Under the pieces are notes generated by a model. It saw nothing but the letters and a program-made list of their open reading frames with translations, was not told the origin of the DNA and made no database searches. A stretch of DNA of 49,802 nucleotides from Zetaproteobacteria bacterium CG_4_9_14_3_um_filter_54_145. GTDB taxonomy: Bacteria > Pseudomonadota > Zetaproteobacteria > Mariprofundales > Mariprofundaceae. The stretch lies in contig PFXI01000070.1 in the NCBI GenBank assembly GCA_002791575.1, forward strand, positions 1-49,802, in the 5' to 3' direction. Below, one piece after another: positions 1,134-36,654 of this stretch (positions are counted from its first letter, which is position 1; every line of letters begins with the position of its first letter). The position numbers were made by a program, and so were the translations under genes.

Positions 1134-2161
1134 TGATGAGAAACATTCTGCTTCTGGCATACAACGATCTGGCTATCGCACTGAAAAACAAGACCTTTCT
1201 TCTGATCCTGTTTATTCCGCTATTCGTCTTTGTTTCGCTGAATCTGGTAGACAAGATGGGTGCCGAAGCAAGCAAAGTCAGGCTCGTTATGGTTCAGGAC
1301 TATGCCTATGCCCCCGAGATCACCCGCAGCATCGATGCCGCCAGACAATTCATTGAAGTAACATGGGTTCAGGATGAAAAAGATGGTGTGCGTCTGTTGA
1401 AGGCACACAAGATAGACGGGATATTGACCCACAGTGATGAAGCAAGCGGCAGTCTTACACTGCTGGTTTTAAAGAAAGGCTCCATCCCCACCATTGCCAT
1501 CATGCAGCATTTCTCAGCCCTGCAGAAGGCGGCGGAAGGCAATGCACCCGATTGGATCCGCAGCATCAAATCGCTGCATCAGGGCGGCGTGCAACGCGAG
1601 TCGCTGCCTACCTGGATATTGATGCTGGTCCTGCTTATCGGTTTTATTATTCTGCCGACACAAGTTGCCGAGGAGAAAGAGAAGAAGCTGCTCCTGGCCC
1701 TGCTGCAGATGCCCATACACGAGATCCAGTGGCTGATTGCCAAATTGATCCTGGGCATGGTTCTGATCATCGCTGCCGTGCTGTTTCTGCATCTGCTGGG
1801 TCAGTTCGGCCCGATACATCTGCCGGACTATATCGTTTTCATCCTCGCAGGCAGTTTCTGTTTCAGCGCCTGCGGGATATGTCTGGGCTTTCTCTGCCGC
1901 AGTCAGGCCAGCGCCCGGGTGCTGGGCGTGATCTTCTATCTGCCGCTGCTGCTGCCTGCCGCGATGTCTGATGTGTCACAAAAACTGACCGCTGTTGCAC
2001 CCTTTCTGCCGTCATATCAGCTGTATCAGCCGCTTCAGTCCATACTGCTGGAAAATGGCAGATTGGCGGATATGACCTTTGACTGGGTCTATTTATGCGG
2101 GCTGGGCTTGCTGATGTGTTATCTCTCCTACCTGTTGATGAAAAGGGGCTGGCTGATGTGA
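1133..2161 (+). CDS. ABC-2 family permease (NatB-like)
   Basis: Membrane subunit paired with the upstream ATPase, 342 residues. The topology is classic for ABC2_membrane_3 proteins. One N-terminal helix lies at about residues 22-38. An extracytoplasmic domain of about 120 residues follows. At least five helices make up the C-terminal half, including WILMLVLLIGFIILP and LILGMVLIIAAVLFLHLL. The conserved helix boundary PTQVAEEKEKKLLLALLQ, typical of NatB-like permeases, sits after the second helix. Two ATGs in a row occur at 1133 and 1136; the first overlaps the stop of the ATPase gene. No neighbouring gene hints at the exported substrate. Confidence 0.85.
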   Translation: MMRNILLLAYNDLAIALKNKTFLLILFIPLFVFVSLNLVDKMGAEASKVRLVMVQDYAYAPEITRSIDAARQFIEVTWVQDEKDGVRLLKAHKIDGILTHSDEASGSLTLLVLKKGSIPTIAIMQHFSALQKAAEGNAPDWIRSIKSLHQGGVQRESLPTWILMLVLLIGFIILPTQVAEEKEKKLLLALLQMPIHEIQWLIAKLILGMVLIIAAVLFLHLLGQFGPIHLPDYIVFILAGSFCFSACGICLGFLCRSQASARVLGVIFYLPLLLPAAMSDVSQKLTAVAPFLPSYQLYQPLQSILLENGRLADMTFDWVYLCGLGLLMCYLSYLLMKRGWLM

Positions 2162-2217
2162 TTCCGGCCTGCAGCGGATAAGGTTCAGCGCCCCTTCCAT
2201 GCCCCGGAATCATGCTG

Positions 2218-3066
2218 CTAAAGTGATTGCAGGCCGGAGCTCAGTGATTTGAATTCATGATGATCCGGCCCAATCAGGCCATGACGCAACAGAAAGTCGA
2301 TCACCACCAGGTTGCAGTTGGGTTTAAAGGCATCACTCTCAGCCACCATGCGCGCCACATTCTCTATCCGCCACAGATAGAATCCGGCCACCTCACCATC
2401 GGTGCAAACTGGCTTGAATGCAGCCGGCAGACTCAGGTCATAACAGTAGATGGTATCCGAGCGCAGCCCGGCTTCAGTTTCGCGCCGGTAAGTGATCACA
2501 CTTGTGGCAACCGCCTGTGCTGCCAGTTCAGGTGCAATACCCGCCTCTTCCTCACACTCCTTGGCAAGGTTCTCTTCGGCCGTGATGCCGAATGGAAAAC
2601 CACCTGCCACCATCTGATCGAGCAGATCCGGAAAGGTGTGCCGATCTGCTGCACGCCGGCCAACCCACATCAACAGGCCATCGTCACTCTCCACGAAGCC
2701 ATTCACATGCTGACCAAATGAGCGCACGCCAAAAACAGATACAGCAGCCCTATCCAGCAAAAATGCAGGCGACTCGCTCCTGTCATTCAAAACAGGGTAG
2801 AGCTCCCCCATCAGATGATCGAGCAGACCGAGGCGAACCAGCTCAATCAGCACCTCAGCCACCGCACTGTTGCGCGCCTCAAAGCTCTGCAAGGCAGGAT
2901 GCAGCGCCACCTGGCGATCATCCACGACAAATACAGCCGGGAAACGCCGCAGCTCGCCGGCAAAGGCCGGGCGCATCCATCCATAACCCACTGCCCCCAC
3001 AATAAAGGGGATAAAATTGTCCGGATTCCACCGGTTACACTGTTCGATATGACGCGTATAGTTCAT
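2218..3066 (-). CDS. DUF4743 and Nudix hydrolase
   Basis: 282-residue protein with an N-terminal DUF4743-like domain (about 1-120) and a C-terminal Nudix domain. The Nudix box reads GGFPFGITAEEN then LAKECEEEAG, which fits G-x5-E-x7-xE-x2-EE-x-G with a Cys in place of the usual residue after the first catalytic Glu. This two-domain architecture is found in the yeast YJR142W/Tnr3 family, linked to hydrolysis of damaged thiamine diphosphates. That role is a family-based inference. The ATG at 3066 has a GGTGGA-like site just upstream. The gene is convergent with the ABC permease; a 9-bp inverted repeat (2159-2167 with 2204-2212) spans the junction. Confidence 0.75.
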   Translation of the reverse strand: MNYTRHIEQCNRWNPDNFIPFIVGAVGYGWMRPAFAGELRRFPAVFVVDDRQVALHPALQSFEARNSAVAEVLIELVRLGLLDHLMGELYPVLNDRSESPAFLLDRAAVSVFGVRSFGQHVNGFVESDDGLLMWVGRRAADRHTFPDLLDQMVAGGFPFGITAEENLAKECEEEAGIAPELAAQAVATSVITYRRETEAGLRSDTIYCYDLSLPAAFKPVCTDGEVAGFYLWRIENVARMVAESDAFKPNCNLVVIDFLLRHGLIGPDHHEFKSLSSGLQSL

Positions 3067-3183
3067 TCAGATCCACCCACAACTCATTTCAACTACAAAT
3101 ACCAGGCCGGCATGGTTATTGTATTGTTTAAATCATCCCGCCGCAGTCATGAAAAATGCAGTGCTGCTGCGGAGATCGTACGA

Positions 3184-4815
3184 CTAGAAGCAGGCGTTGC
3201 GGCTGCGCACAAAGGCCTCGAACTCGGCGGCCAGCAGCGGCTTGCTGAAGTAGTAGCCCTGAATCTCGTTGCACTGGCGCTCCTGCAGCCAGCCGAACTG
3301 GTCGGCATCTTCCACACCCTCGCAGATCACATTCAGCTTCAGATTGTGCGACAGGCCGATAATTGCCTCGACAATCTTGGCATCGTCATCGCTGATGATG
3401 ACATCATCGATAAAGGATTTGTCGATCTTCAACTTGTTGATCGGAAAGCGCTTGAGATAGCTCAGCGATGAGTAGCCGGTGCCGAAATCATCGATGGAGA
3501 GCGATGGCCCCATCGCCGCAATCTTCTCCAGTAGTGCAATGGTGTTTTCAATATCTCTCATGACCATCGATTCGGTGATCTCCAGCTCCAGATAGGCCGG
3601 ATCCAGCCGACTCACAGCCAGTACCTGTGCAATCCTGTCGAGCAGGTGTCGATCGGAGAACTGGCGTGCCGACAGGTTGACCGCCACCTTCAGATCGATG
3701 AGCCCCGCATCGTGCCAGGCTTTGGTCTGGCGGCAGGCTTCATGCATGACCCAGTCGCCGATCGACACGATCATGCCGGTCTCCTCGGCGATCTGGATAA
3801 AGTGGAACGGGGCAACCATGCCGCGCTCGGGATGCTGCCAGCGGATCAGTGCTTCCATACCGATCACATGGCCGCTGATGGTATTGATCTGCGGCTGGTA
3901 GTGCAGCACAAACTCCCTGCGCTCGATCGCCTTGCGCATCTCGCTCTCCAGGCTCAGGCGGTTGACCGCCGAACTCTGGATGGAGGCCTTGAAAAACTGG
4001 TAATTATTGCCGCCATCGGCCTTGACGCTGTACATCGAATGCTCGGCATGATGCAGCAACTCCTCGCTGTCATCGCCGTCGCCGGGGAAAATGACAATGC
4101 CGATACTGACAGTAATGACCACATCCTGGCCATCAATGTCAAAGCCGCTCTCCAGCGCATGCATCAGCTTCATGATCACAATCGTGGCATCTTCGGCATG
4201 GACCAGATCGGTCAGCAGCACGGCAAAACGGTTGCCGCCGACACTGGCGATCAGGTCGTTACCGCGCAGCAGTTTTTTCAGCCGTTGCGCCATCTCCCCG
4301 AGCAGCTGGTCGCCCTTAACATAGCCCAGCGAGTCATTGATCACCTTGAAGTTGTCGACATCGATAAACAGCACACCGATCTGAAAATGCTTGCGTTTGG
4401 CGTTCTCCAGCTCCTGGGTCAGGATCTCCTTGAACATCCTGCGGTCGGGCAGGTGGGTATTCTGGTCATAGCTGCCGGAGGCGCTGTCGAGCGGCTCGAT
4501 AATATGGATATAGTGGCACCTGCCCTCGTCCTCGATGGTTGTGGCAACGGTTGTCTGCATCACCTTGATAATACTGCCATCGGCCTTTTTCAGGCTGACC
4601 TGGCCCGACCAGATGGCCTCAGCATCAAGTGCTGCCCGCTCGATAGCATGATCCTGATCCGACTGTCGCAGGTAGAGGTCGGCGGAAGGGGAGCCTGCCA
4701 GCAGTGCGGCCGGGAAGCCGGTCAGCTCGGTGAAGGCGGGATTCACACGAAGAACCCGGTAGGCATCGTCGGCAACCATGACGGCACCTGTGACGCGTTG
4801 ATATTCTGTGGCCAT
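3184..4815 (-). CDS. PAS - degenerate GGDEF - EAL phosphodiesterase
   Basis: 543-residue signalling protein. A PAS sensor domain covers residues about 1-115, a GGDEF domain about 120-285 and an EAL domain about 295-540. The cyclase signature reads GGNRF instead of GGDEF, so diguanylate cyclase activity is very unlikely. The EAL domain keeps EALIRW, DDFGTGYSS and KIDKSFI, so it probably hydrolyses c-di-GMP, with the GGDEF as a possible GTP-binding regulator. I chose ATG 4815 because GGAG lies eight bases upstream. An open frame continues to 5421, but that extension looks non-coding and runs into the divergent gene. It is transcribed away from another c-di-GMP gene. Confidence 0.85.
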   Translation of the reverse strand: MATEYQRVTGAVMVADDAYRVLRVNPAFTELTGFPAALLAGSPSADLYLRQSDQDHAIERAALDAEAIWSGQVSLKKADGSIIKVMQTTVATTIEDEGRCHYIHIIEPLDSASGSYDQNTHLPDRRMFKEILTQELENAKRKHFQIGVLFIDVDNFKVINDSLGYVKGDQLLGEMAQRLKKLLRGNDLIASVGGNRFAVLLTDLVHAEDATIVIMKLMHALESGFDIDGQDVVITVSIGIVIFPGDGDDSEELLHHAEHSMYSVKADGGNNYQFFKASIQSSAVNRLSLESEMRKAIERREFVLHYQPQINTISGHVIGMEALIRWQHPERGMVAPFHFIQIAEETGMIVSIGDWVMHEACRQTKAWHDAGLIDLKVAVNLSARQFSDRHLLDRIAQVLAVSRLDPAYLELEITESMVMRDIENTIALLEKIAAMGPSLSIDDFGTGYSSLSYLKRFPINKLKIDKSFIDDVIISDDDAKIVEAIIGLSHNLKLNVICEGVEDADQFGWLQERQCNEIQGYYFSKPLLAAEFEAFVRSRNACF

Positions 4816-28770: not shown

Positions 28771-29571
28771 ATGCCATTTGCCGAGCAACAGAACATCATC
28801 GGACGCGGGTTCTATATCGGGCAGCGGCTGGATATCAAAGCCTTTGAGAAGGCCCGCCGTCTGGCAACCAGCCCGCTGATCATCAGCGCCGGCAGTCAGG
28901 GTGCGGCAGTGCTGTTTCGCTATGGTGTGGTCGTGCTGTTCGGCCTGAGCACCTCGGAGGAGGTCGCCTTCCTCAAGGATATGCAAGGTTTTATCATCGA
29001 TCCCTTTGATAACTATGAGGTGGAAGAGATAAACCTCTGCCTTACCATCGCCCAGTCGAAACCGGAAAACAGCGGCCACATGCCGCTGGATGAATTCAAT
29101 CTGCCACGCCTGCAGGTCGTGGCCAGCGTACTGGCCAAGAGCGAGATTCTGTCACACTACGAAGCTGAGGTGGCGCAAAGCTTCGATCGTATCGAGCCGC
29201 TGGCCCATGACCTTCAACATGGCGGCCGGTTCATGCACAAGGGACGCGAGCTGCTGGCCCATATCGGCGATGTGCTGATGATTCAGGGACGCATGGTCGG
29301 CCGCGTGGAGATCTGTGAAAAACCCGAGCTGCTGTGGGAAGAACCCCAATATGACCGCCTCTACCTGCGCATGGCCGAAGAGTATGAACTGATCGAGCGA
29401 CACAGGGCACTCGAACGCAAGCTGGATCTGGTATCCAAAACGGCCGAAACACTGCTGGATCTGCTGCAGAACAGACGCTCACACCGTGTCGAGTGGTATA
29501 TTGTCATCCTGATTGTGATAGAAATCCTGCTCACCATCTACGAGTTGTGGGGCCAGCATCTGCTGGGGTAA
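28771..29571 (+). CDS. RMD1/YagE (DUF155) family protein
   Basis: 266 residues. The protein matches the RMD1/YagE family in layout: an N-terminal alpha/beta domain (about 1-100, with SQGAAVLFRYGVVVLFGL), a helical middle, and the diagnostic C-terminal block YDRLYLRMAEEYELIERH. It ends with a single membrane anchor, VEWYIVILIVIEILLTIYEL (about 240-259). In eukaryotes the relatives (RMND1, Sif2/3) support mitochondrial translation or meiosis; the bacterial function is unknown. AGGA lies six bases before ATG 28771. The parvulin gene follows after 45 bases on the same strand, possibly cotranscribed. Confidence 0.85.
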   Translation: MPFAEQQNIIGRGFYIGQRLDIKAFEKARRLATSPLIISAGSQGAAVLFRYGVVVLFGLSTSEEVAFLKDMQGFIIDPFDNYEVEEINLCLTIAQSKPENSGHMPLDEFNLPRLQVVASVLAKSEILSHYEAEVAQSFDRIEPLAHDLQHGGRFMHKGRELLAHIGDVLMIQGRMVGRVEICEKPELLWEEPQYDRLYLRMAEEYELIERHRALERKLDLVSKTAETLLDLLQNRRSHRVEWYIVILIVIEILLTIYELWGQHLLG

Positions 29572-29616
29572 ATCATATTGTCGGCCCGCTTCGGGTACGC
29601 AGATCAGGGAGTTTCG

Positions 29617-29895
29617 ATGCGCAGTGCTATGGCAAAACATATTCTGGTAAAGACCAGGGCTGAGGCCGAGCAGTTGAAACAGCGGCTGGAAAGCGGTGAG
29701 CAGTTCGCCAGGCTGGCCAAACAGTATTCACTCTGCCCGTCGAAAAAGAAGAGCGGCGATCTCGGCGAGATTTTCCCCGGCCAACTGGTCAAACCGGTTG
29801 AGGATATCATTTTCAAAAAGGCCCTGCTGACACTGCACGGACCGGTAAAAAGCCGTTTCGGCTTTCATCTGATCATCGTCTATTTCAGAAGCTAG
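29617..29895 (+). CDS. ppiC: Parvulin-type peptidyl-prolyl cis-trans isomerase
   Basis: 92-residue single-domain parvulin, almost the same length as E. coli PpiC (93) and with the same landmarks. These are AKHILVKTRAEAEQLKQRL, then SGEQFARLAKQYSLCPS, the Gly-Asp-Leu-Gly turn (SGDLGEIFPGQLV), and the C-terminal RFGFHLIIV. The conserved active-site residues are His in KHILVK, Cys in SLCPS and His in GFHLI. There is no signal peptide, so it is cytoplasmic. ATG 29617 has GGGAG five bases upstream; the frame is open further 5' from a TTG at 29578 without coding character. The role is folding or prolyl isomerisation; substrates are unknown. Confidence 0.9.
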   Translation: MRSAMAKHILVKTRAEAEQLKQRLESGEQFARLAKQYSLCPSKKKSGDLGEIFPGQLVKPVEDIIFKKALLTLHGPVKSRFGFHLIIVYFRS

Positions 29896-29997: not shown

Positions 29998-31104
29998 ATG
30001 AGTTCTGTTACGCCATCCGATTTGAGTGCCTTCGCTGTCGATTACCGGCAGGCACGTGCTGCATTTTTAACCGCTGCTACACAGGCCGGCGCACGCATCT
30101 CCACCCATGATCATCCGCTGACAGGGCCAAAGGGCGAGGCGCTGGCGACGGATCTGGCATGGCTGGGAGATGCCGATGCCCAGACCGTGCTGGTGCTGCT
30201 CTCTGCCACCCACGGTGTCGAAGGCTTCAGTGGCTCGGCAGCACAGATCGATTTTCTCCGCCGCATGCAGGCACTACCACACGGCGTCGCTGTGCTGATC
30301 GTACATGCGATCAACCCGCACGGCTTCGCATGGCTGCGTCGGGTCAACGAGGACGGGGTCGACCTTAATCGCAACTATATCGACTTCTCACATCTGCTGC
30401 CGGTCAACGCCGGTTACGGGGCACTGGCCGATGCCATCGTACCTGCCGCGCTGGACAGCGCTACGCTGGAAACATGCGACCGGCGTCTGGCCGACTATCT
30501 GGCAACGCATGGTCGCAAGGCTTATGAAAGAGCGCTATCCGGCGGCCAGTACGATGATCCGCACGGGCTCTTCTTCGGTGGTACCCGGCCCTGCTGGTCG
30601 CGCCTGATCAGTGAGCAGATCGTTACCGATTTCCGGCTGGCTGAACGCAAACGGGTAGCGCTGATCGATTTTCACACCGGCATCGGCCCGTTCGGCTATG
30701 GCGAGCCGATCTGCGATCACCCGCCGGGCAGCAGCGGTGTACGGCTGGCGCGCCACTGGTACGGCGATTCGGTGACGGAGCCGGCGCTCGGCACCTCGAT
30801 CTCGGTGGCCAAGCACGGGCTCTCCGACTACGGCTGGATGCAGATGGTTGGCGAGCCACTGGTATTTATCGCGCTGGAATTCGGCACCTATCCCTTCGAC
30901 GTGATGATGCAGGCGCTACGGGCCGATCACTGGCTGCATGCACAGGGTGTTGTTGATTGGCATGAAGCGCAGACGCAGGCCATCAAGGCCGGCATGCGCA
31001 AACATTTCTACCCGGCGACAACAGACTGGCAGCAGATGGTGCTCGTCCGCTCCCGCCAGTGCATCGATCAGGCTCTTGCCGGACTTGCCGCAAAGACGGG
31101 TTAG
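29998..31104 (+). CDS. DUF2817 (M14-like) zinc carboxypeptidase
   Basis: 368-residue member of the DUF2817 group of M14-type metallopeptidases. Likely zinc ligands and substrate-site residues occur in SATHGVEGFSGS (His and Glu), VHAINPHGF, and LNRNYIDF, with DFHTGIGPFGYGE further on. There is no signal peptide, so it is cytoplasmic. ATG 29998 has GGGGTG six bases upstream; a GTG at 29989 overlaps that site. The stop overlaps that of the convergent ATP-grasp gene by three bases (31101-31104). A peptide-trimming peptidase, ligase and C39 peptidase together suggest shared substrates, which is inference. Confidence 0.85.
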   Translation: MSSVTPSDLSAFAVDYRQARAAFLTAATQAGARISTHDHPLTGPKGEALATDLAWLGDADAQTVLVLLSATHGVEGFSGSAAQIDFLRRMQALPHGVAVLIVHAINPHGFAWLRRVNEDGVDLNRNYIDFSHLLPVNAGYGALADAIVPAALDSATLETCDRRLADYLATHGRKAYERALSGGQYDDPHGLFFGGTRPCWSRLISEQIVTDFRLAERKRVALIDFHTGIGPFGYGEPICDHPPGSSGVRLARHWYGDSVTEPALGTSISVAKHGLSDYGWMQMVGEPLVFIALEFGTYPFDVMMQALRADHWLHAQGVVDWHEAQTQAIKAGMRKHFYPATTDWQQMVLVRSRQCIDQALAGLAAKTG

Positions 31105-32594
31105 CCGTTGCGCGTGGCCTCAATGCGGCGGATAAACTCGTGGATAATGGTACTGTACAACTCACCCTTGAGCACCTTGTCCTCGACACCGTGGTCGATA
31201 TTGGGGTTGTCATTGATCTCGATAACAAAGATGCCGTTGTCATTCTGTTTCAGGTCAACGCCATACAGACCGTTACCGATAAGGGCGGCCGCGGCCAGTG
31301 CCGTTTTCACCACCTCAACGGGGGCATCCTCGACAGGCATGGTGGCAAAACCGCCCGGCACGGATGAGCCGTCTGCCTTGTGGTTGACGATCTGCCAGTG
31401 GCCACGCACCTGTTTATACTGACAGGCATAGAGCGGTTGACCGTTGAGGATGCCGATGCGCCAGTCGTAAGAGGTATACATAAACTCCTGCGCCAGAATA
31501 ATACGTGAGCGCTCAAACAGGGTTTTTGCCGCCTCCATGACCTTGCTGCGGGTATCGGCCTTGAACATACCGCGCGAGAAAGAGCCATCGGGAATTTTCA
31601 GAATCATCGGATAGCCCAGCTCATCTTCCAGACGCCGGATCACCTGCTCATCAAAACGGAGGCGGTTAAGGGCAATGGTTTTCGGCGTCGGCAGGTTCTG
31701 CGCCGACAAACGCTCCCACATATAGACCTTGTTGGTACAACGGATAATCGATTTCGGGTCGTCGATCACCGGCATCCCTTCGGCCTCGGCCTTGCGGGCA
31801 AAACGGAAGGTGTGATTGTCGATAGCCGTGGTTTCGCGCAGCAGCAGTGCATCGAACTCACTCAGCCGGCTGTAATCTTTTTTCTGGATCAGCTCGACAT
31901 CAACGCGCAACTGCTTGCCTGCCTTGATAAAACGCTCCAGTGCGGCCGTATTCGACGGCGGCAGTTGTTCATTCGGATTGTGCAGGATGGCCATATCGTA
32001 GAGCGCCGGTTTACGGCTGCCGCTGCGCTTGCGCCGCGGCACGCGCGCATAGTTGCGCAGACTGCTTTCAAAAAAGTCGCCGAGGGCGGCTGTCACCTGA
32101 TGCAGTCCCATCGGTCGGATCGAGCGGATCTTCCAGCCGCCACCCGGCTGGATGCTTAACTTAAGCAATGGATAGCGAAACAGATCAAACAGCTCCGAGG
32201 CCAGGCGGTGAAAACGGGCGTCATCGCAGTGGCCGAAGAAAATGAACAGCTCAAAGGGGCCTTCGGGCGGCACAGCCAGGCGCTTGATCGTCTGCTGTAG
32301 CTGACGCTCCAGATCGGGCAGGGCAAAGGCGTAGAGGCTCTGGCGTGAGAGATCGACGATATCGGCAACCGTCGGCATCGGGGTATCATTGCGCGCCTCG
32401 GCCAGCAGCGAGCAGTAGTAGCCGCCGCTCAAATAGGTGTAGTGGCGGCAGAGGTTGATGATGCGCATCGGCCGCTGCTGCGGAGTCGCCTGCCTGGTCA
32501 GATAATCATTGGCAGGGATAAGCTCCAGCCCTTCGATCTGCCATTTCCAGTCTTTCAGACGATCGACAATCACAGTATGGCGTACCGACATCAT
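31101..32594 (-). CDS. RimK-like ATP-grasp peptide ligase
   Basis: 497 residues. The N-terminal part (about 1-200) is the accessory domain found in long RimK-like proteins, with MRIINLCRHYTYLSGGYYCS. The C-terminal part (about 215-490) is an ATP-grasp fold with KSIIRCTNKVYMWERL, PMILKIPDGSFSRGMF, AQEFMYTSYDWRIGIL and the metal-binding EINDNPNIDHGVED. It should form amide bonds between a carboxylate and an amine, for example by adding glutamate residues to a peptide. AGGAG lies four bases before ATG 32594, which overlaps the stop of the upstream GNAT-C39 gene (ATGA). Both belong to one operon. Confidence 0.9.
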   Translation of the reverse strand: MMSVRHTVIVDRLKDWKWQIEGLELIPANDYLTRQATPQQRPMRIINLCRHYTYLSGGYYCSLLAEARNDTPMPTVADIVDLSRQSLYAFALPDLERQLQQTIKRLAVPPEGPFELFIFFGHCDDARFHRLASELFDLFRYPLLKLSIQPGGGWKIRSIRPMGLHQVTAALGDFFESSLRNYARVPRRKRSGSRKPALYDMAILHNPNEQLPPSNTAALERFIKAGKQLRVDVELIQKKDYSRLSEFDALLLRETTAIDNHTFRFARKAEAEGMPVIDDPKSIIRCTNKVYMWERLSAQNLPTPKTIALNRLRFDEQVIRRLEDELGYPMILKIPDGSFSRGMFKADTRSKVMEAAKTLFERSRIILAQEFMYTSYDWRIGILNGQPLYACQYKQVRGHWQIVNHKADGSSVPGGFATMPVEDAPVEVVKTALAAAALIGNGLYGVDLKQNDNGIFVIEINDNPNIDHGVEDKVLKGELYSTIIHEFIRRIEATRNG

Positions 32595-33688
32595 TGTTCT
32601 CCTTTCGTTAGCAGCAGTGTCGCATACTGGCGACGCGAACCATAGAAACGCATACGTTCGAACTCATTGCGCGCGACCGGAATACCGAAACAGGTGGTTT
32701 CGGACTGGCCATCATCCGTATCGACAAACGGTTCGTGGATGTAGACAAAACGCTTGTCGATGCCGCTGACCACAACCCAGTGCGGTGATTTGTCACCGGT
32801 CAGCCGGTAGGCACTGATCAGCACCACCGGAATCGCACCGTTGCAAAACTGCTGCTCCATCTCGACCAGTGGCAGGTGGCGCTCATGCAGCGGCAACCCC
32901 AGCGCGTGGATCTCCTGCAGGAAATCCTCCTGCACAATGCGGATCACCTCACGCTTCTCCTCGTTGCGTACCGAATCGATAAACATCACCGCGTCGCAAG
33001 AGGTAAATATCTCGGGCGTAAAGCCGCGATGAAATGCCGACAGCGCCAGTCCGAAAGGGCTACACCCGCCGTGGCCGGAGGTCATGAAAATACTGGTCGC
33101 CTCGCGCCATATCCTCAGCTCCAGCCGGCGACTCAGTGCCAGTTCGGGATCCAGCGATTTCATGGCCATCATCAAACTGGCCGGACCACAGGTAAAATCG
33201 AGAGTCTGGCCATAGTAGGGCACCGAACTCAAATCAGGGGCAAGGTTGGGGGCCAGCGGTTTTTCCATGCGCAAAGCCGCCGCATGATCCTCATAATAGT
33301 CGGGATAAACGTCAAAATCATGATAGCCCAGTTTGTGATAGAGCGCGATGGCAGTGCTGTTGTTGATATGCACTTCCAGTCGCATGGATACAACGCCATG
33401 CTCCAGCGCATCCAGCTCGCTGATCGCCAGCAGCTCGCGGGCAATGCCCTTACCCCGACCTTCGGGGGCGACGGCCAGTGAGTACAGACGGGCCATCGAG
33501 GTGTTCTGGTGAAACAGCACCAGCACATAGCCCCGCAGCTGTTCATCCTCATCAAACACAAACAGCGAGGCCTTGCCGCGAGTCAGCAGATGGCGAAAAC
33601 TGCGCTCGGAGAGGCGGTCGGTGGCAAAGCAGCGATTCTCAAGCGCTACCAGCGCCGGAATGTCGGTCAGGAGAGCCGCCCGGATCAC
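32591..33688 (-). CDS. GNAT acetyltransferase - C39-like peptidase fusion
   Basis: 365-residue two-domain protein. The N-terminal GNAT domain (about 1-145) has IRAALLTDIPALVALE at its start, the acyl-CoA loop VAPEGRGKGIARELL, and HKLGYHDFDVYPDYYED. The C-terminal papain-fold C39-like peptidase (about 165-365) has the catalytic Cys in DFTCGPASLMMA, His in SPHWVVVSGID and the associated HEPFV. The combination with an ATP-grasp ligase in one operon is a known arrangement in amidoligase systems that modify peptides. The start is uncertain: GTG 33688 gives the normal GNAT beginning, and the frame is open to a TTG at about 33742 with no good ribosome binding site. Confidence 0.85.
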   Translation of the reverse strand: MIRAALLTDIPALVALENRCFATDRLSERSFRHLLTRGKASLFVFDEDEQLRGYVLVLFHQNTSMARLYSLAVAPEGRGKGIARELLAISELDALEHGVVSMRLEVHINNSTAIALYHKLGYHDFDVYPDYYEDHAAALRMEKPLAPNLAPDLSSVPYYGQTLDFTCGPASLMMAMKSLDPELALSRRLELRIWREATSIFMTSGHGGCSPFGLALSAFHRGFTPEIFTSCDAVMFIDSVRNEEKREVIRIVQEDFLQEIHALGLPLHERHLPLVEMEQQFCNGAIPVVLISAYRLTGDKSPHWVVVSGIDKRFVYIHEPFVDTDDGQSETTCFGIPVARNEFERMRFYGSRRQYATLLLTKGEQ

Positions 33689-33879: not shown

Positions 33880-35292
33880 ATGCATCGATTATCTCTTCTG
33901 CTACCACTTACTCTGCTACTGCCATCTGTGGCATTTGCATCATCAGGCGCGGCCGCCCCGCTGGATATGACCATGACCTGGTTCGGCATAGCGGCCCTCA
34001 TCGTGTTTGTTTTCGCCTATGCGCTGGTGATCGGCGAAGAGACGCTGCATATGCGCAAATCCAAGCCTGTGATGGTCGCGGCAGGCATCATCTGGATTCT
34101 GGTTGCCCTCGCCTTTAATGCAGACGGCGACACCACCAGTGCACACACACTGGTTCAGCATAATATTCTTGAATATGCCGAGCTGCTGCTGTTCCTGCTT
34201 GCCGCGATGACCTACGTTAACACGATGGAAGAGCGCAATATATTTGCAACCCTGAGGGCCTACCTGGTGTCGAAGGGGCTATCGCTGAAAGCGATCTTCT
34301 GGCTGACCGGGCTGCTGGCATTCTTTATCTCTCCTATCGCCGATAACCTGACCACCGCGCTGGTGATGGCCGCTGTAGTCATGGCTGTAGCCCGGGATAA
34401 CGCAAAATTTGTCACACTCGGATGCATCAATATCGTCGTTGCCGCCAATGCCGGTGGCGCATTCAGCCCCTTTGGTGATATCACGACACTGATGGTCTGG
34501 CAGAAAGGCATGGTTGAATTTCAGCAGTTCTTCGCACTGTTTCTGCCGGCCATCGTGAACTGGCTGGTGCCGGCGGCAATTATGGTCTGGTTCCTGCCCA
34601 ACGCTATCCCGCAAAGCGTTACCGAGGAGGTACATGTCAAACAGGGCGGTTACATCATCATTGCCATGTTTCTTGCCACCATCGCCATGGCGGTTCTGTT
34701 CCACAGCCTGCTGCATCTGCCATCGATGCTCGGCATGATGACCGGCCTTGGCATGCTCAAGCTCTATGGTTACTGGTTAAAGCGGGTGGCCTTCCAGTAC
34801 GAAGAGTCCTTTGTCGGCAACACCCAGCTGGATGGCTCTCCCGGCGATCCGCCATTCGACATCTTTCATCAACTGCAGCGCTCAGAGTGGGATACGCTGA
34901 TGTTTTTTTACGGCGTGATTCTCTGCGTGGGTGGTCTGGGTGCACTGGGCTACCTGAATCTCACATCGCACCTGATGTATGATCAACTGGGCGCAAGCTG
35001 GGCAAATATTCTGGTTGGTCTGATGTCCGCCATCGTTGATAATATACCGGTCATGTTTGCCGTATTGAGCATGTCACCGTCGATGGATGTAAATCAGTGG
35101 TTGCTGGTAACATTGACGGCCGGCGTTGGCGGCTCGCTGCTCTCTGTCGGCTCTGCTGCCGGCGTTGCCCTGATGGGGCAGGCACGGGGCACCTATACCT
35201 TCTTCAGCCACCTGAAATGGACATGGGCGATTGCACTGGGCTATATCGCCTCTATTGCAACCCACTTCTGGTTAACCGGCATGGTTTTTTAG
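33880..35292 (+). CDS. nhaD: Na+/H+ antiporter NhaD
   Basis: 470-residue polytopic ion transporter of the IT superfamily, as expected for NhaD. The N-terminus looks like a signal sequence (LSLLLPLTLLLPSVAFA). About eleven more helices follow, including LTGLLAFFISPIADNLTTAL, the characteristic INIVVAANAGGAFSPFGDIT repeat, and ANILVGLMSAIVDNIPVMF in the C-terminal half. These two half-repeats with SPIADN and AIVDN carry the conserved Asp-Asn residues. It exchanges sodium for protons and supports growth in saline or alkaline conditions, which fits a marine host. The gene is monocistronic and convergent with the following small membrane-protein gene. Confidence 0.93.
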   Translation: MHRLSLLLPLTLLLPSVAFASSGAAAPLDMTMTWFGIAALIVFVFAYALVIGEETLHMRKSKPVMVAAGIIWILVALAFNADGDTTSAHTLVQHNILEYAELLLFLLAAMTYVNTMEERNIFATLRAYLVSKGLSLKAIFWLTGLLAFFISPIADNLTTALVMAAVVMAVARDNAKFVTLGCINIVVAANAGGAFSPFGDITTLMVWQKGMVEFQQFFALFLPAIVNWLVPAAIMVWFLPNAIPQSVTEEVHVKQGGYIIIAMFLATIAMAVLFHSLLHLPSMLGMMTGLGMLKLYGYWLKRVAFQYEESFVGNTQLDGSPGDPPFDIFHQLQRSEWDTLMFFYGVILCVGGLGALGYLNLTSHLMYDQLGASWANILVGLMSAIVDNIPVMFAVLSMSPSMDVNQWLLVTLTAGVGGSLLSVGSAAGVALMGQARGTYTFFSHLKWTWAIALGYIASIATHFWLTGMVF

Positions 35293-35821: not shown

Positions 35822-36472
35822 TCATACAAGTGATACTGAATCTTCAACAGACGCCATCATTTGCGCGATACGCGGATCATCAGCGGGGCAATCATACACA
35901 TTGTTGTATATCACCCTCAACCAGTGCTCCAGTTGCCGCCTGTTTATCGGTGGCAACAGCGATGGCTGAAACACCATCAGATCCATCTGCGGGGGCTCCC
36001 CCTCTCCGGGCAGCGGCAGCAGATAAGAGAGATCCCTGATGCAGAGACAGCCCAGCCGGCGGTAAAACTGCTGCCTGCGCTTGCGCATCGGCTGGTCGGC
36101 CGATGGCTCCTTATCGGAATCCACCTCCAACAGGCCGTAAACCGGCCCGCAACGCTGCGTAATATGTTCAAAGGTATGCAGGAACAGTTCTCTGCCCAGT
36201 CCCATATTTCGGTAGCCTGCATGAACAGCCATATACTCCAGCAGACAGAACTGCTCGTTGAACGGTGAATAGACGATACTGAAACCGATGACAGCATGCG
36301 CGCTTTTCAACAACAAGATGCTGTAATCATCGCGGCCTGCAATGGCGGCAATCTCGGAGCGGGGCTTGCGCTCGCGCAGTGTGATTGCATCAACATAGAT
36401 GGCATAGAAGGCATCGAATAACGGATCACTATCCGATACCAGTTGCTGATAGCTGCAGTGATTCCCGATCAT
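35822..36472 (-). CDS. GNAT-family N-acetyltransferase
   Basis: 216-residue single-domain acyltransferase. The acetyl-CoA loop is HAGYRNMGLGRELFLHTF (R-N-M-G-L-G), preceded by the strand SPFNEQFCLLEYMAV, where GNAT fold members have strand 4. YDCPADDPRIAQMM lies near the C-terminus, and no second domain is visible. The substrate is unknown. ATG 36472 has GGA a few bases upstream and yields a standard GNAT start; the frame is open to 36538 without coding character. It shares strand with the small genes around it, with lipB about 450 bases upstream and the single-span protein 32 bases downstream, so it may be in a loose operon. Confidence 0.75.
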   Translation of the reverse strand: MIGNHCSYQQLVSDSDPLFDAFYAIYVDAITLRERKPRSEIAAIAGRDDYSILLLKSAHAVIGFSIVYSPFNEQFCLLEYMAVHAGYRNMGLGRELFLHTFEHITQRCGPVYGLLEVDSDKEPSADQPMRKRRQQFYRRLGCLCIRDLSYLLPLPGEGEPPQMDLMVFQPSLLPPINRRQLEHWLRVIYNNVYDCPADDPRIAQMMASVEDSVSLV

Positions 36473-36654
36473 CTTTCCAGCCCCTTTCGTTGACCTTACA
36501 GGCGACAACCCGGTCAGTATAGGCGGGAAACCGGACAAGGCAAAGAAGCCGGGCTCCTTTCAATGCTGATGATGCGGGGGCTCTATCAGAGGTGGGTTAT
36601 CCGCTACAGAGAGCGGTATGATAGAGTGACATGGAGCCTGTTGCGCTGAATGAC

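Follow-up and report, generated by a model that had tools for sequence, protein, structure and literature searches.

Gene content of the locus

The present analysis concerns a group of linked genes for a predicted amidoligase, an acetyltransferase-peptidase fusion, a zinc peptidase and a DUF155 protein, located on contig PFXI01000070.1 of Zetaproteobacteria bacterium CG_4_9_14_3_um_filter_54_145, whose full stretch of 49,802 nucleotides is hereafter called the window. The genome belongs with Mariprofundus, and the window ligase shares 85% identity with its counterpart in M. ferrooxydans PV-1. On the forward strand, the DUF2817 gene (29998-31104; start ATG at 29998, stop TAG at 31102-31104) encodes an M14-type zinc peptidase of 368 residues (PF10994, 380.2 bits). 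It converges with a reverse-strand gene (31101-32594; start ATG at 32594, stop TAA read as the reverse complement of 31101-31103) for an RLAN-RimK-like ATP-grasp amidoligase of 497 residues, which comprises an RLAN domain (32064-32513; PF14401, 154.6 bits for a cut-off of 25 bits) and an ATP-grasp domain (about 31191-31733; PF08443, 31.7 bits for a cut-off of 21 bits). The stop codons of these convergent genes overlap by two bases within 31101-31104. On the same strand as the ligase, a further gene (32591-33688, reverse strand, ATG at 33688) encodes a GNAT acetyltransferase (about 54 bits) fused to a DUF3335 papain/C39-like peptidase (PF11814, 275.4 bits; C39 domain at 32609-33223, reverse strand), and its TGA stop overlaps the ligase ATG within an ATGA at 32591-32594. 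Both overlaps were read directly from the sequence, and the domains of the locus score above their Pfam cut-offs in a profile scan of ten locus proteins. The three open reading frames, the overlapping stops and the ATGA coupling are as a preliminary description of the window had given them, and its proposal that the ligase and the GNAT fusion follow a known amidoligase arrangement fits the RLAN-ATP-grasp and GNAT-DUF3335 domains found. The same description had confined the locus to three genes; these do belong together, but the interval omits a linked fourth gene, at 28771-29571 on the forward strand, for a DUF155 protein of the RMND1 family (subfamily 'a', 266 residues; PF02582, 114 bits for a cut-off of 27 bits).

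In the DUF2817 protein, the HxxE...H zinc site (H at 30211-30213, E at 30220-30222, H at 30673-30675), the catalytic Glu (30877-30879) and an N-R pair are invariant in 18 relatives. A fold comparison of the structural model (predicted local distance difference test, pLDDT, 82) retrieved carboxypeptidase A, hydrolases of the AstE/AspA type and CphZ, a cyanophycin dipeptide hydrolase, with modest template modelling (TM) scores and an E of 8e-6 for 1pyt_B; the carboxypeptidase and AstE/AspA deacylase groups were matched with similar, modest scores; an N-terminal signal sequence was not evident by eye. The nearest relatives of the ligase in the PDB are RimK and LysX, and its ATP-grasp motifs are invariant in 17 relatives. 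However, the specificity of RimK is not transferable to it because it scores below the RimK cut-offs (TIGR00768, 83.5 vs 143.4 bits; NF007764, 25.1 vs 331). The GNAT domain comes closest to N-terminal acetyltransferases and RimI, and residues Q161, C167 and H303 of the C39 domain are invariant in 18 relatives. Taken by their domains and their intact active-site residues, the ligase and the GNAT-C39 protein correspond to the RLAN/GNAT-papain type of amidoligase pair, for which amide-bond formation is predicted.

Linkage of DUF2817 and DUF155 to the ligase pair

The family of the window was sampled with 74 genomes. Thirteen of them encode the RLAN ligase, the same 13 encode DUF3335, and DUF2817 is present in these and two more (15 in total); the co-occurrence of ligase and DUF2817 has a hypergeometric probability of 1e-12, ancestry being ignored. 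DUF2817 adjoins the ligase in all 13 family genomes, always convergent and within about 2 kb, and these loci sit among nine unrelated sets of flanking genes, which are more telling than the overlap of occurrences since that statistic takes no account of ancestry. The association is found again in Magnetococcaceae-type genomes and in an alphaproteobacterial metagenome-assembled genome. Depending on the locus, the GNAT-C39, ligase and DUF2817 genes lie on one strand (L056, genome G081, outside the family), the ligase and DUF2817 genes are convergent as in the window (L099, the alphaproteobacterial case), or GNAT-C39, DUF2817 and DUF155 are consecutive with the ligase elsewhere in the genome beside a GNAT-only gene (L174, genome G078). 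Among the 58 ligase genomes of the phylum sample that lie outside the family, DUF2817 adjoins the ligase in G081 only, and the Pseudomonas and Azospirillum loci examined all lack it beside the ligase; DUF2817 is therefore a lineage-limited accessory. The association with the pair in other genomes, on which the preliminary description had made its argument depend, thus holds throughout the family and in two other lineages but not in the Pseudomonas and Azospirillum loci, and neither DUF2817 nor DUF155, both absent there, can be retained as a general partner of the pair. In one genome (G005, locus L055), a DUF2817 gene (2126-3265) is surrounded by flanks common to L042, L044 and L046, but the ligase and GNAT-C39 genes are missing, apparently lost while the peptidase stayed.

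A phylogeny of 39 DUF2817 proteins places every one of the 16 linked proteins in a single 21-row clade with a support of 100/99. Three other rows of this clade are unlinked and come from genomes outside the family that nevertheless own the ligase (G086, G127 and G280), the two genes being 44 kb apart in G086, and the remaining two belong to family genomes in which a ligase was not found. Pairwise distances between ligases correlate with those between DUF2817 proteins (r 0.86 overall, 0.67 within the family). The adjacency throughout the family, its recurrence in two further lineages and the dedicated clade bear out the earlier suggestion that the three genes form a unit.

The DUF155 gene is nearly as tightly associated as DUF2817 within the family and is ligase-linked in more genomes outside it. 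One copy occurs in 12 of the 13 family ligase genomes, inside the module in 11 of them, and it belongs to either of two subfamilies, about 20% identical, which are separated in the tree by a long, fully supported branch indicative of an ancient split. Subfamily 'a' is encoded upstream of DUF2817 (window, L045, L047, L049, L050) and subfamily 'b' between the ligase and DUF2817 (L042, L044, L046, L051, L052, L053); no genome has both. In a gammaproteobacterial family (f9, 120 genomes), DUF155 occurs in 22 genomes, the ligase in 58 and both in 21 (p 3e-7), and in nine genomes the two genes adjoin by their coordinates. In seven of the nine loci that were read (L175, L197-L202), the ligase, GNAT-C39 and DUF155 genes are consecutive and share a strand; in L196 the ligase is followed by DUF155 with GNAT-C39 divergent, and in L176 DUF155 sits between GNAT-C39 and a GNAT-ligase pair, in the opposite orientation. 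The link between DUF155 and the ligase is therefore reproduced in another lineage. The model of the window protein (pLDDT 85) consists of a beta-rich head and long helices, and visual inspection of the alignment and the model points to a hydrophobic C-terminal membrane helix. A fold search did not find a clear structural relative: in the AlphaFold model of 28771-29568, the sheet of residues ~8-106 resembles one half of the TATA-binding protein (Foldseek E 9e-4), a weak partial match over 92 columns with TM scores of 0.25-0.34, and the likeness of the whole layout to MRS2 is weaker still (E 0.012).

With respect to the peptidase half of the fusion, the C39 domain is kept in all 24 ligase loci that have DUF2817 or DUF155 nearby, out of 147 ligase loci in total, whereas of the other 123 loci 90 keep it and 33 are without a full GNAT-C39 protein (Fisher 0.002, or 0.0003 without most Pseudomonas). 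Conversely, only one of 44 genomes possessing DUF2817 or DUF155 but no ligase contains C39. This pattern, together with the arrangement of L174, suggests a module of two halves, one composed of the ligase and GNAT, the other of C39, DUF2817 and DUF155.

A proposed writer/eraser module and its alternatives

What ties the four genes together is their recurrent adjacency in several lineages, their near-perfect co-occurrence in two families and the dedicated DUF2817 clade. The explanation considered probable, with a fair measure of doubt, is a four-gene module for the writing and erasing of amide bonds, all of whose activities are predicted from homology and fold. The ligase and GNAT would act as the writer, editing would fall to C39 and the M14 peptidase, and DUF155 would provide the membrane anchor. 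Judging from its RimK and LysX homologues, the ligase would activate a carboxyl group with ATP and join it to an amino compound, an amino group of the product possibly being acylated by the GNAT domain. From their folds and intact active sites, the C39/papain domain could cut amide bonds within the product, or else behave as a transpeptidase, and the DUF2817 enzyme could hydrolyze them at a C-terminus, while the C-terminal helix of DUF155 may tether the assembly to the inner membrane. No small open reading frame is conserved across the 13 family loci, in agreement with the lack of a small precursor gene pointed out earlier, and with no linked gene for a precursor peptide, a cluster-encoded peptide is a less likely substrate than a small peptide or the tail of a protein encoded elsewhere. 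For the Mariprofundus-group iron oxidisers, in which the pair almost always stands beside a zinc peptidase and an RMND1-family membrane protein, the data suggest one system for adding and removing peptide bonds. A more daring proposal, for which only limited confidence is warranted, is that bacterial DUF155 proteins anchor an ATP-grasp amidoligase to the membrane, the ligase attaching a reversible tag to a protein and a dedicated M14 peptidase erasing it.

Several observations weigh against such a module. In most Pseudomonadota the ligase-GNAT pair occurs without DUF2817 and DUF155, so these two have to be regarded as accessory. Once the window's family is removed, co-occurrence in the phylum sample is weak (p 0.013 and 0.025), and the co-occurrence statistics ignore shared ancestry. 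Both DUF2817 and DUF155 also occur in many genomes devoid of the ligase, the DUF2817 proteins of which lie mostly outside the linked clade. Within the family itself, the ligase genome G017 has no DUF155, and in G044 the DUF155 gene lies elsewhere.

A small-metabolite pathway, rather improbable in our estimation, would have an N-acylated di- or oligopeptide, conceivably a compatible solute, produced by the GNAT and the ligase and recycled by the peptidases. The N-acetylglutaminylglutamine amide (NAGGN) system is built from the same kinds of parts, a GNAT, an ATP-grasp enzyme and a peptidase; the GNAT has a weak, sub-cut-off match to the NAGGN synthetase model TIGR03103; CphZ, a dipeptide hydrolase, is among the nearest folds of DUF2817, and cation antiporters are encoded next to some modules (NhaD at two loci, the window and L045, and a Na/Ca exchanger at L044, L046 and L083). 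However, these antiporters are inconstant between loci, the match to TIGR03103 is far below the cut-off (23.8 vs 569 bits), which led to the rejection of membership in that osmolyte system, no amidotransferase was seen in the locus, and a soluble product needs no membrane anchor.

Reversible C-terminal tagging of a ribosomal or other protein, in the manner of RimK and RimB acting on RpsF, is a specific form of the writer/eraser explanation and appears unlikely as such; DUF2817 would replace RimB, and DUF155 would link the ribosome to the membrane. In its favor, the solved ligases closest to this one are RimK and LysX, RimI is among the nearest characterized GNATs, DUF2817 has a carboxypeptidase fold, and the pairing of a RimK-like ATP-grasp ligase with a peptidase recalls Pseudomonas, where a dedicated peptidase, RimB, undoes the additions of RimK (PMC11957791, PMC12239564). 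Human RMND1, a relative of DUF155, has been proposed to tether mitochondrial ribosomes (PMC7564844), but this role is derived from mitochondria only. The sub-cut-off scores of the ligase preclude a transfer of RimK specificity, and the locus differs from RimK/RimB by its RLAN domain, its GNAT-C39 partner and its DUF155 protein, as well as by an M14 zinc enzyme in place of a retropepsin-like aspartic peptidase. Membership in the RimK/RimB system was rejected on these scores, and no RimB occurs among the ten locus proteins scanned, the rest of the genome not having been searched.

That DUF2817 and DUF155 are functionally unrelated neighbors kept by descent or joint transfer is the least probable reading, since the links occur in several lineages with different gene orders, two distant DUF155 subfamilies reached the same locus and C39 is always kept where either protein is present, even if one family supplies most DUF2817 cases, the pair elsewhere does without both proteins, and the moving flanks would allow the block to travel as a unit. 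An anti-phage defence system (no PADLOC match) and a plasmid-borne cassette (megablast found no matching plasmid) were also discarded.

Related systems and neighboring genes

In eukaryotes, TTLL ligases are paired with CCP (M14) deglutamylases, an ATP-grasp-type ligase being opposed by an M14-type carboxypeptidase; the parallel with the writer/eraser module is an analogy only, TTLL being a different ligase family and glutamylation not being demonstrated here. Closer relatives are the amidoligase systems with RLAN/RimK-like ATP-grasp enzymes and GNAT-papain fusions that citing papers and Pfam attribute to Iyer et al. 2009 (Mol Biosyst 5:1636). They display the same protein pair and the same fusion, and are widespread in Pseudomonadota, whereas the present locus adds the linked DUF2817 and DUF155. 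The frequent fusion of DUF3335 to GNAT is mentioned elsewhere (PMC10318531, citing Iyer 2009). In the Rlo operon of P. aeruginosa (RloA/RloB/RloC), an ATP-grasp protein, peptidases and a membrane protein take part in one process (PMC12239564); in contrast to this locus, Rlo possesses an inactive seven-helix transglutaminase membrane part and a secreted retropepsin, neither of which was seen here.

The ligase/GNAT-C39 pair is thus already known, and DUF2817 and DUF155 as its linked partners are the apparently new element. In the open literature, DUF2817 was encountered in one unrelated paper only, by a search that did not cover Iyer et al. 2009, and no paper naming DUF155 with ATP-grasp was found, that article again lying outside the search, so an earlier description is possible. 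The literature searched yielded neither an assigned substrate for the widespread pair nor a description of a bacterial DUF155 role. In this respect, the dedicated peptidase clade and the membrane protein of a disease-linked family provide two handles on the substrate of the pair: the product would be expected to build up in an eraser mutant, and the enzyme to be recovered with the anchor in a pull-down. DUF155 gains a testable partner, and the anchor and tagging proposal, if true, would give the bacterial side of the RMND1 family its first biochemical setting.

Other genes surround or interrupt the module. A PpiC-type parvulin gene (29578-29895, forward strand) separates DUF155 from DUF2817 in the window; it was rejected as a member, the sister locus L045 having no space for one there. 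An NhaD-type sodium/proton antiporter gene (33880-35292, forward strand) is divergent from the GNAT-C39 gene and starts ~190 bases from it, but in L045 NhaD (2248-3732) lies upstream of DUF155 instead. Beyond NhaD, ~2 kb past the module, a second, separate GNAT-family gene occupies 35822-36538 on the reverse strand. The cation antiporters, NhaD and the Na/Ca exchanger, were not retained as module members, as they occur in some loci only. The Na/Ca exchanger is encoded within the module or next to it at two Mariprofundaceae loci, L044 (7498-8568, PF01699) and L046 (6087-7070), and adjoins the ligase in an f9 genome (L083, 3606-4574), where it is 52% identical to the L046 copy.

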